Source: Rhodospirillales bacterium (lineage in GTDB: Bacteria > Pseudomonadota > Alphaproteobacteria > Dongiales > Dongiaceae). From it: a stretch of DNA of 32,361 nucleotides. The notes under the pieces were generated by a model. It had not been told where the DNA came from and searched no databases. It was given only the letters and a program-made list of their open reading frames with translations. Positions 6,897-25,044 of the stretch are shown here, piece by piece (positions within the stretch are counted from its first letter, which is position 1; every line of letters starts with the position of its first letter). The stretch is taken from NCBI GenBank assembly GCA_009885795.1, contig VFKA01000083.1, positions 1-32,361 on the forward strand. Direction: 5' to 3'. The position numbers were made by a program, and so were the translations under genes.

Positions 6897-7796
6897 CACC
6901 CGCTCCGTATCCATCACGCCAACGGCAAGACATTGGTATGGAAGAGCCAAGTGTCGAACGGCGGCGTCTGGCAACTGCTGGGCACCTTCCCGATGGCGGC
7001 GAACCAGAACCACCGCGCGGTCCTCACCAACATGGCCGACGGCATCGTGGTCGCCGACGCGGTCGGGTTCCAGCGCGTGGGCTCAGCCCCGCCGGCGGCG
7101 GTGTTCGCGCCCGCGATCCCCGCGCGCGACGAGTACGAGGTCTACGTCCGCTGGGTGCACACCAGCGGCCGGGCCACCGACGCGCCCTACGTGGTGTTCC
7201 GCGAGGGCGGCTCGACGACGATCCGGGTGAACCAGGCCGACAACGTCCTCAACGGCACCTGGGTCCCGCTCGGCACCTTCATCATGGCGCCGGGGCAGGG
7301 CCACCGGGTGGAGCTGCGCGACGACGCCAACGGCACCGTCGAGGCCGACGCGGTGCGGTTCCTGGGCAAGCCGGTGACCAAGACCGCGACCTGGACGCTC
7401 TCGGCCGCGCAGACCGCCAACCACCGCGTCTATGCCAAATGGCCCGCCTCCAATCTGAATCCCACCAATGCGGTGTTCGCGGTGACCCATGGCGGCGGCA
7501 CCACCAACGTCACCGTCAACCAGCGCGTCAACGGGGGCCAGTGGGTGCTGCTCGGCACGTTTCCCTTTACGTCGGGCGGCGCCGGCTACAAGGTGACGCT
7601 CATGGGGAATTCCATCGGCCGGGCCGCGGCCGACGCCGTGCACATGGTGGCCGAGCCCGTGGTCACCGACGCCTTCACCTGGACGCCGGCGATCCCGGGG
7701 CCCGGCAGCTACCAGCTCTACGCCCGCTGGACGGCGTCCTCGGCGAACACCGCCGCCGCCGGTTACACCATCGTGCATGGCGGGGGCAGCCAAGAC
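6897..7796 (+). pseudogene. Remnant of a repeat protein with golvesin-like domains
   Basis: An open frame of about 300 codons made of repeats of roughly 95 residues. Each unit follows the pattern: hydrophobic strand, YxVYxxW, TNAxYxVxHxGG, T-x-V-x-VNQ, WxxLGTF, V-x-L-x-D and ADAVxFxx. Two full units (about 7080-7368 and 7369-7656) are flanked by a partial unit at each end. The left unit begins inside its 'IHHANG' strand directly after the shared 24-base repeat, with no good start codon. The right unit stops after 'HGGGS', in the middle of the motif. Such golvesin C-terminal-like domains occur in large secreted or RHS-type proteins. Truncation at both ends and lack of a signal peptide argue for a dead fragment. 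The frame stays open by chance to a stop at 7850. Confidence 0.7.
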
Positions 7797-7814
7797 CGAT
7801 TGGCTCCCGCCATT

Positions 7815-7932
7815 GGCATGCCAGCCTGCAAAATCGATGAAAGTTATTGACTTTCCCTAACGAGTTCCTATATTGTTCTTGCATCCCGTTTCGGCGGGAT
7901 CGGCGTAGCTCTTTGACATCGTGAATAGGGCC
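7815..7932 (+). promoter_or_regulatory. Promoter/leader cassette, copy A
   Basis: Closely related to 24641-24756. In order it holds a palindrome (GGCATGCC), a -35 box TTGACT (7847-7852), a 16-base spacer, a -10 box TATATT (7869-7874) overlapped by a LexA-type operator, a 6-bp hairpin with a 6-base loop (7883-7900), and a boxA-like motif GCTCTTTGACA (7908-7918) followed by TCGTGAATAGG. Such a promoter-hairpin-boxA order is known from rRNA leaders and some CRISPR leaders, but no 16S gene or CRISPR repeat follows here. It points toward mtnK's 3' end, so it drives no known gene. It could be the promoter of an unannotated RNA. Confidence 0.6.
7864..7878 (+). promoter_or_regulatory. Candidate LexA operator GTTC-N7-GTTC
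   Basis: GTTC at 7864-7867 and 7875-7878, seven bases apart, matches the direct-repeat SOS box known for alphaproteobacterial LexA. It overlaps the -10 element of cassette A, where a bound repressor would block RNA polymerase. The same arrangement is in cassette B. Confidence 0.6.
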
Positions 7933-8160
7933 TTTGGCGGACGGCGCCCTCGCGGGCGAGCGGTCGCCGGCCGGGGCGGGTTCCGCCCCCGAAAATGGCC
8001 GTTTTCCGCGGGCGGTTTCCCCAGGAAAAAGTCTTCATGGGGTTGTTCCTCCGGAAAATAGAATCGCGTTCGGATGAATTAGGACAAAATGCCATGTCGG
8101 ACAAGGGCTTGGCTCGAAATTGCCCGCGAAATGCCTAAATCCGATTCTTCGGATGTCGCC
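7933..8160. other. Gene-free stretch with dense potential RNA structure
   Basis: No credible gene is present. It lies just downstream of cassette A. Stems visible by eye are GGGGCGG/CCGCCCC (7973-7979 with 7983-7989), a longer-range TTTTCCG/CGGAAAA (8002-8008 with 8052-8058), and inside it CCCCA/TGGGG (8019-8023 with 8038-8042) interleaved with GGAA/TTCC (8024-8027 with 8046-8049), which would make a pseudoknot. If cassette A is transcribed, this would be its RNA. Confidence 0.35.
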
Positions 8161-24245: not shown

Positions 24246-24558
24246 CTACACTCTCTCCACCACCATCCGCCTGTCGGCGGTGAATTTGACGACGTTCACC
24301 GGCCGGTCGGGGAAGACAATCTGTTTCGTCTCCTTGACCGCCGCGTCCGCGCCGCCGAAGGGCAGGACCCTTGTCCATGAGCCAGACGGAGTCGCCCGAT
24401 TTCCACTCAGGCGCGGCCGGTCCCGCCTGACCATTGCCATTGGGCTGATTGGAAAGTGGTTGCGGCTGGGGCGCGATGTCGGGTGCAACGGTTGGAGCCC
24501 TGCCGCCCAAGTGAACCGGGGTCTTGCCGCCTCCGCCCATACCTGCCGGCTTGGTCAT
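24246..24558 (-). pseudogene. Frameshifted gene remnant, unknown family
   Basis: Reading leftward from an ATG at 24558, one frame encodes MTKPAGMGGGGKTPVHLGG..., a proline/glutamine-rich segment and GDSVWLMDKG. A second frame then continues naturally as PFGGADAAVKETKQIVFPDR and ends with RRMVVERV at a stop at 24246-24248. A single frameshift near 24365-24375 would join them into one protein of about 100 residues. The upstream end may be truncated at cassette B. I cannot name the family. Confidence 0.4.
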
Positions 24559-24640: not shown

Positions 24641-24756
24641 GGCATGCCAGCCCAGGAACATTTGGAAAGTTGTTGACTTTTCCAATCGTGTTCCTGTAAT
24701 GTTCCTAGTCCCGTTTTGGCGGGACAAGCGTAGTTCTTTGACATCGTGAATAGGCC
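24641..24756 (+). promoter_or_regulatory. Promoter/leader cassette, copy B
   Basis: The second copy of 7815-7932. It has GGCATGCC, -35 TTGACT (24673-24678), a 16-base spacer, -10 TGTAAT (24695-24700), a hairpin with arms GTCCCG/CGGGAC (24708-24713 with 24720-24725) and a boxA-like GTTCTTTGACA (24733-24743) followed by TCGTGAATAGG. Relative to copy A the outer pair of the hairpin changes from A-T to G-C, which keeps the stem. The nearest downstream gene on this strand starts at 25045, almost 300 bases away. Confidence 0.6.
24690..24704 (+). promoter_or_regulatory. Candidate LexA operator GTTC-N7-GTTC
   Basis: GTTC at 24690-24693 and 24701-24704 with seven bases between, covering the -10 of cassette B exactly as in cassette A. 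The seven spacer bases differ at two positions between the copies while both GTTC halves are unchanged. Confidence 0.6.
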
Positions 24757-25044
24757 TACCGAAAACTCCCTTTCGCGGCATCGCGAGGGTGGGAGATATC
24801 CCATCGCCCCGCCCCTCCCACCACCCGACCCGAATTGAACCTCCGATTTTTACCTGGGGGTATACCTCGGTCGGTCCGGACCGAAACCCGACGACCGATA
24901 AGTGGTCCCTGATCGCTTATCGCCGACAGCTATCCAGCCCCGCCCAGCGGCAGTTCCCGCTTGGCATGGGGTCCGGCGCTCGTTTTTCGTTTCCGCCGCT
25001 GGGTGAAGACCCCGCTGGGCGGCGGCCCGACGTAGTATGCCCCC
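24757..25044. other. Gene-free stretch with two stems upstream of the hydrolase
   Basis: No gene is seen. Stems are TCGCG/CGCGA (24773-24777 with 24782-24786) and GGTGGGAG/CTCCCACC (24788-24795 with 24815-24822). The rest is GC-rich upstream sequence of the hydrolase gene with no clear promoter. Confidence 0.4.

Follow-up and report, generated by a model that had tools for sequence, protein, structure and literature searches.

Copies A and B, two similar cassettes in the 32,361-nucleotide stretch of Rhodospirillales DNA analyzed here (the window; contig VFKA01000083.1, assembly GCA_009885795.1), are probably (at roughly 0.6) the 5′ ends of two noncoding-RNA genes, which belong to a dispersed family and carry an antitermination leader of the rrn type. 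This reading is based on the copy number of the cassettes, their punctuated conservation, covariation in the leader hairpin, the lack of any constant frame from boxA to the body module M1, and the lack of an Rfam match. A sequence-only reading of the window had offered three explanations: a mobile unit, a leader whose CRISPR or rrn locus was lost, or the promoter of an undescribed RNA. The last is the one favored by the evidence.

Anatomy of the two copies and of their family

Both copies contain, on the forward strand, a σ70-like promoter, a hairpin, an rrn-type boxA and the extension TCGTGAATAGG, just as the sequence-only reading had placed them. In copy A, an upstream control region (7801–7846), which is alike upstream of the promoter in some other copies, includes the GGCATGCC palindrome (7815–7822). 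The promoter (7847–7874) consists of TTGACT (7847–7852), a 16-base spacer and TATATT (7869–7874); its −35 box is conserved across copies and its spacer is not, and a simple promoter scan makes two overlapping calls in this region against a shuffle mean of 0.2. It is followed by the leader hairpin (7883–7900), the stem of which covaries in 20 copies, and by a conserved element (7908–7929) resembling the rrn leaders of relatives, made up of boxA GCTCTTTGACA (7908–7918) and the extension (7919–7929). The body (7930–8139) is apparently untranslated and is of type 1, as defined by alignment of 16 copies. It includes module M1 (AAAAGTCTTCATGGGGTTGTTCCTC..., 8027–8139), matched by the body model R2 with an E value of 3.6e-19 as one of 19 such places in the genome.

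Copy B, as read from the sequence, repeats this layout, with the GGCATGCC palindrome at 24641–24648 and a promoter at 24673–24700 (TTGACT at 24673–24678, a 16-base spacer, and TGTAAT at 24695–24700) that lies in a match to the leader model R1 (24663–24754). The simple scan misses this promoter because it requires an A at the second −10 position. The hairpin (24708–24725) precedes the conserved element (24733–24754) with boxA GTTCTTTGACA (24733–24743) and TCGTGAATAGG (24744–24754). The body (24755–24989), assigned from strings and module positions, is of type 2, with M4 (24832–24866) and an M2-like module (24941–24989); the M4 string TTGAACCTCCGA (24835–24846) is one of 12 in the genome, with none for the control. 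That the likeness between A and B ends after TCGTGAATAGG had been noticed before and is explained by their different body types, each of which recurs in other copies.

No 16S gene or CRISPR was found behind the cassettes, in agreement with the sequence-only reading, and neither was a conserved frame or an Rfam family. No terminal inverted repeats were found at copies A and B, and neither copy has direct repeats of the CRISPR kind; in the bodies of other copies, read by eye, no CRISPR array was found. There is also no intrinsic terminator near copy A or B, which counts against a noncoding-RNA gene.

The resemblance that had been described as a pair of stretches is real, but A and B belong to a larger family, which numbers at least 37 cassettes. 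Used as a DNA query against the genome containing the window (G000; 3.46 Mb, 103 contigs), copy A matches 25 places with E values up to 8.8e-4. The leader model R1, built from the sequences of these places alone, matches 36 places, and one more degenerate leader was found by eye on contig C57. The string TTTGACATNGTGAA occurs 28 times in the genome and its reversed control not at all; judged by these counts, chance is excluded as the source of the likeness between A and B. Among the first 25 copies, the −35 box is TTGACT in 22, TTGACA in two and CTGTTT in one, and the promoter spacer measures 15–17 bases. The distance from the −10 box (taken as the best match) to boxA is 33–35 bases in 21 copies and 14–20 in four. 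The order of −10, hairpin, boxA and TCGTGAATAGG is kept across copies, with the hairpin shortened or altered in five of the 25, a point against the noncoding-RNA reading.

Type-1 bodies, found in 16 of the first 25 copies including copy A, carry M1 (AAGTCTTCATGGGGTTGTTCCTC) and, after it, about 90 bases that align, while type-2 bodies, as in copy B, carry M4 (TTGAACCTCCGA) and/or M2/M3 (CATGGGGTNNATCG); M1 and M4 occur together in some copies. By strings and R2 jointly, at least one module follows 36 of the 37 leaders. The single leader without a recognized module behind it (L078a) counts against the noncoding-RNA reading. Conversely, R2 finds M1 at 19 places in the genome, 18 of which have a leader upstream. 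The 19th (L084/L129; contig C72, ~43748–43860, minus strand) has another promoter-like region with the near-palindrome AGCGTAATCATGTAACGCT and without boxA. Exact M2/M3 strings occur at 24 sites (controls, 0), four of them outside recognized cassettes, on contigs C37 (18880), C42, C58 and C97 (15680), and exact M4 strings at 12 sites (control, 0), with one, on C72, outside. At two loci on C37 and C42 (L104 and L105), related reading frames each have a leaderless M2/M3 module at their 3′ end. On contig C101 (L191, 47–50 kb), two cassettes lie 1.3 kb apart with duplicated flanks that are 89% identical over 369 bases.

Conservation, covariation and coding potential

Conservation was measured in two ways. 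In the 25 first copies, found by leader similarity and compared in windows anchored on motifs, it amounts to 29.5% upstream, 93% in the −35 box, 34% in eight spacer bases, 67% in the −10 box, 96% in boxA, 81% in GTGAATAGG and 39% in the next 20 bases, and in 16 copies it reaches 98.7% in the M1 core and 25.5% past the body, all of these figures being inflated by the motif anchoring and the leader-based finding of copies. In the repeat measure, loci were taken from the body model and aligned without anchors, with the leaderless L073 omitted from the leader alignment. Here, 18 loci give 28% upstream, 95% in the −35 box, 40% in the spacer, 63% in the −10 box, 89% in boxA, 69% in the extension and 49% in the next 20 bases, and 19 loci give 95% in the M1 core and 19% past the body; the leader and body selections are not fully independent, because the body model came from leader-selected copies. 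Decay in such a punctuated manner is not what neutral copies of a single repeat would show.

Covariation of the leader hairpin was counted in 20 copies, leaving out the five with altered hairpins. Of its cells, 87.5% are paired (reached by 2 of 500 shuffles) and nine show a double change (0 of 500), and the covariation score is reached by 7 of 500. The double changes fall in four pairs, a number reached by 103 of 500 shuffles, which counts against the noncoding-RNA reading. So do several properties of the body. Its helices, with 78% of cells paired (5 of 500 shuffles), 11 double-change cells (22 of 500) and a covariation score reached by 10 of 500, are only modestly above shuffles; single-sequence folding is weak (z of −1.30 for copy A and −2.15 for copy B); and RNAalifold predicts four pairs in the bodies, not one of which has a double change.

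The distance from boxA to M1 is spread over all three frames (7, 5 and 4 of 16 copies). A small peptide starting from M1 (ATGGGGTTGTTC...) was rejected on this ground and because of single-base indels within the block. A reverse-strand reading, in which the complement of M1 resembles GAGG...ATG, was set aside by eye in view of early stops and frame changes among copies. Rfam 15 gave no match in the window at gathering scores, and for 18 loci of this genome at E values up to 1 it gave one irrelevant match (E 0.45) and no rRNA. ARAGORN identified one tRNA (Gly) across 36 loci, on the opposite strand beside one cassette. The Rfam 16S model found no 16S gene in this genome, where, as in relatives, it is insensitive, and nine of 14 controls gave a signal. 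Among papers largely from outside the subscription journals, no title or abstract opening returned by the literature searches describes such a family.

Spread, neighboring genes and alternative origins

The sequence-only reading had staked itself on further copies in related genomes, and the outcome depends on what is counted: the cassette itself gave no match in 60 relatives, whereas its architecture occurs 16 times in one genome of the same family (G014). R1 and R2 gave no matches in the 60 relatives (16 of the same family), with 61–67 candidates scored per genome under stricter filters that can lose weak matches; this search does not show cross-species conservation of the family, which counts against the noncoding-RNA reading. 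The string TTTGACATNGTGAA occurs 16 times in G014 and in none of 15 other same-family genomes, six of them of G014's genus. Elsewhere in the class, it occurs one to four times in eleven genomes, and single matches there are not above noise, as the reversed control also appears once in ten genomes. Across 385 evenly drawn genomes of the class (without G014), TTTGACATCGTGAA is found 27 times in G000, three times in G143 and once each in nine others. Searching other species genomes, in a collection that may omit records of the own genome, with an M1 19-mer gave 31 single matches. Of these, R2 recognized one, weakly (L141, E 0.21), and R1 recognized none, so they were taken as chance.

The boxA core of the G000 cassettes recurs in those of G014, whose promoter region and bodies are different. 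A script found one to seven pairs of direct repeats per cassette (38 overall, at least one of which lies in a gene by chance). In 11 cassettes, 15 modules were picked out that start with a direct repeat and close with a complement of it; they are 121–124 nt long, although the pattern by which they were picked permits a wider range of lengths. Their mean folding z is −1.7. The closing stem has 95.8% of cells paired and double changes in 12 cells (a number reached by 0 of 500 shuffles), confined to two of eight pairs, which amounts to two subtypes. On account of their length and terminal inverted repeats, these modules were considered as candidate integron attC sites, the kind of site recombined by an IntI integrase. 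Rfam had no match in the G014 copies. R2 gave only two matches in G014 (E 2.5 and 2.8), both at expected places, and homology between M1 bodies and G014 modules is not claimed; GAATCGC and GCTTGG, about 40 bases apart by eye, are suggestive. The rpsI locus in G014's genus was rejected as a clean empty site, as six other genomes without the cassette have a different neighbor gene.

Comparable leaders were seen by eye in two further genomes. In G074 (L208, L215), direct repeats of the ATGTCAACAA type come after boxA, which itself has a promoter-like region in front of it. G143 has three boxA leaders, one (L253) with GTCGCG-type repeats about every 11 bases and two (L259, L260) with repeated AACCTATT-type strings. 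The viral contig IMGVR_UViG_3300029826_000033 (L088:6397–6488) has a promoter resembling that of the cassettes, together with boxA and TCGTGAATA (R1 E 7.5e-8), and its leader-like part is followed by CCATGGGGTATCCC and then an ORF. Against phages and plasmids, copy A has short matches only, the best being a 24-base exact match of boxA in Rhizobium phages; in phage RHph_TM27A (17763–17786) and three sister phages, this match to boxA plus extension coincides with no annotated feature.

Genes around the cassettes were called with a small purpose-written script. Copy A lies between mtnA and mtnK. The sequence-only reading had pointed to broken genes beside both copies. Directly in front of copy A, a Golvesin_C ORF (6951–7850) with four domain stretches by Pfam enters the upstream region and stops there, the last domain being incomplete by eye, so that copy A appears to cut this gene; copy B lies beside a remnant of hlyC. 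The next downstream gene is antisense in 25 of 37 copies in G000 (p 0.047) and in 15 of 16 in G014 (p 0.0005), where the upstream gene is directed towards the cassette in 11 of 14 cases (p 0.06). The one clearly orthologous neighbor common to G000 and G014 cassettes is plsY (61% identity), from which it follows that cassette positions are not conserved.

Such a setting is what a selfish dispersed repeat, MITE- or BIME-like and functionless for the cell, might leave behind after capturing an rrn-type promoter. This is the main rival, and we consider it a possible if unlikely origin. In its favor are the many dispersed copies at unrelated sites in G000, the patchy spread (many copies in G000 and G014, none by the boxA pattern in 15 further genomes of the family), plsY as sole orthologous neighbor, the golvesin gene apparently cut by copy A, the duplication of an hlyC-cassette block as a unit, and the antisense orientation of most next genes, into which the cassettes are seldom read in sense. 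Against it, a repeat of this kind would be expected to decay evenly, yet promoter, boxA and body motif are kept next to a near-random spacer. Terminal inverted repeats are absent from copies A and B, and target-site duplications, sought in eight copies, are no better than in shifted controls. The earlier idea of a mobile unit thus stands in part: dispersal, the block copied with hlyC and the apparent cut by copy A agree with it, and the ends of the elements do not. A selfish repeat would account for the spread, not for the punctuated conservation.

The hlyC-cassette block raises another candidate, an RNA partner or antitoxin of a divergent HlyC-type acyltransferase, the protein half of which was lost in most copies. 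At L009 and L010, one block runs at 80% identity from the 3′ end of hlyC through the end of M4, with different flanks. The Pfam family PF02794 is above cut-off at L009, L010, L012 and L016 and below it at L015, where the contig ends, and copy B (L006) and, weakest, L011 have hlyC traces by DNA and reading frames only, giving seven of 37 loci in total. The remnant beside copy B (24246–24558, minus strand) is divergent from the cassette, carries a deletion and a frame change, is 91% identical in DNA to the L009 hlyC over about 160 bases, and has no Pfam match of its own. The block and the traces point to one ancestral unit, a divergent hlyC-cassette pair. Two hlyC-type genes adjoining noncoding cassettes (L170:5516–5890 and L171:2848–3222) have no long gene directly after them.

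Toxin–antitoxin families adjoin other cassettes. A Pfam scan of 45 upstream proteins (33 loci) and 37 downstream proteins (12 of them at an E value of 1e-5 only, the others at 0.01) found such families above cut-offs upstream at six loci: MazF/PemK (L002), a CopG antitoxin (L003), Phd (L017), HicA (L080), DarT with Macro (L081), and PIN with an Rv0623-like protein (L082). Looser cases lie upstream at six further loci: a nucleotidyltransferase pair (L019), Fic (L074), HTH proteins (L005 and L007), an Rv0623-like protein just below cut-off (L078b) and a HicB-like protein below cut-off (L008). None of the 37 downstream proteins has a toxin–antitoxin family as its main family; sub-matches to AAA_21 and Zeta_toxin there are cross-hits of P-loop proteins. 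This shows an asymmetry between upstream and downstream, not an enrichment, which would take a genome-wide background rate. One survey also describes a boxA-controlled gene for a ParE-like toxin (PMC5725501). Still, a partnership with HlyC is improbable: hlyC is absent at most copies, so that no RNA gene with one toxin gene recurs across loci as in type III toxin–antitoxin systems, and no toxicity is known. Two alphaproteobacterial plasmid regions have another gene order (an acyltransferase gene, a hypothetical gene and a very long gene) and contain no boxA-like string.

That the cassettes are promoters and leaders of downstream protein genes fits the 12 of 37 copies in G000 with a co-directional next gene. 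It is a very improbable explanation for a family in which that gene is mostly antisense, here as in G014, and the body has conserved modules without a fixed frame. Descent from an rrn or CRISPR locus of which the leader is left, also proposed earlier, is hardly credible despite a boxA extension that is the same as in a 16S leader, as at least 37 copies share non-rRNA bodies and CRISPR-kind direct repeats are absent at A and B.

Likeness to known systems and a proposed mode of action

The closest likeness is to alphaproteobacterial rrn leaders and internal spacers. Two class relatives, with rRNA genes recognized by eye, have boxA in rrn-type surroundings: TTTGACATCGTGAATA lies some 300 bases before the 16S start in one (L205), and TTTGACATTGTGAA lies ahead of the 23S gene in the other (L201). 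The boxA extensions there, TCGTGAATA at the 16S and TTGTGAA at the 23S gene, are as in the cassettes, and a promoter and hairpin ahead of boxA is the usual rrn order. Unlike rrn leaders, the cassettes have another body and tens of copies, and no 16S gene was found by Rfam a few hundred bases downstream in the window or at the 18 loci. CRISPR leaders may also contain boxA, providing antitermination of a long untranslated RNA, whereas copies A and B have no repeat–spacer array. Multi-copy sRNA families with CCUCC loops are known in Alphaproteobacteria, and resemble the cassettes in being paralogous sRNA genes with CCUC motifs. The cassettes differ from them in their rrn-type leader, in their lack of an Rfam match and in being more numerous.

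Use of boxA away from rRNA has been described in Gammaproteobacteria for suhB, prsA, rpsJ and ParE-like toxin genes, the last being a case at a toxin–antitoxin locus; that survey counts boxA elements no farther than 50 bp from a start codon, at 0–7 per genome, and reports repression (PMC5725501). The cassettes share the use outside rrn operons and differ in that their boxA precedes an apparently untranslated body in at least 37 copies per genome. The G014 bodies resemble the TAACTGA direct repeats of Beggiatoaceae, which PMC4679880 describes as dispersed, intergenic and of unknown origin; those repeats, by the same account, are one fixed heptamer located mostly near start codons.

Returning to a family of noncoding-RNA genes, we propose that RNA polymerase would start at the cassette promoter and transcribe the boxB-like hairpin and the rrn-type boxA. 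The boxA RNA may recruit a Nus-factor complex that makes the polymerase resistant to Rho, which would allow the untranslated body, roughly 150–400 nt with modules M1–M4, to be completed. The family would have spread by duplication, partly along with the divergent hlyC and mostly beside the 3′ ends of genes, and its copies would be maintained by selection on the promoter, boxA and body motifs. The weakest step concerns the function of the RNA, which would most likely lie in base pairing by way of two conserved motifs, CAUGGGGUUGUUCCUC and UUGAACCUCCGA.

Going beyond this genome, we tentatively consider an undescribed alphaproteobacterial class of multi-copy noncoding RNAs, in which a ribosomal antitermination leader would be combined with lineage-specific modular bodies: M1–M4 here, modules of 121–124 nt closed by a covarying stem in G014, and direct-repeat arrays of ~10–11 nt in G074 and G143. 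Such RNAs might regulate by base pairing, or they might be partners of accessory genes linked to them, hlyC for example.

Besides rRNA, a few protein genes, phages and CRISPR arrays are known to use antitermination of the rrn type. A genome with at least 37 such leaders ahead of bodies that appear untranslated would turn it into a general means of producing untranslated RNA, and raises the questions of what is transcribed from the cassettes and whether loss of boxA or NusB abolishes this transcription.
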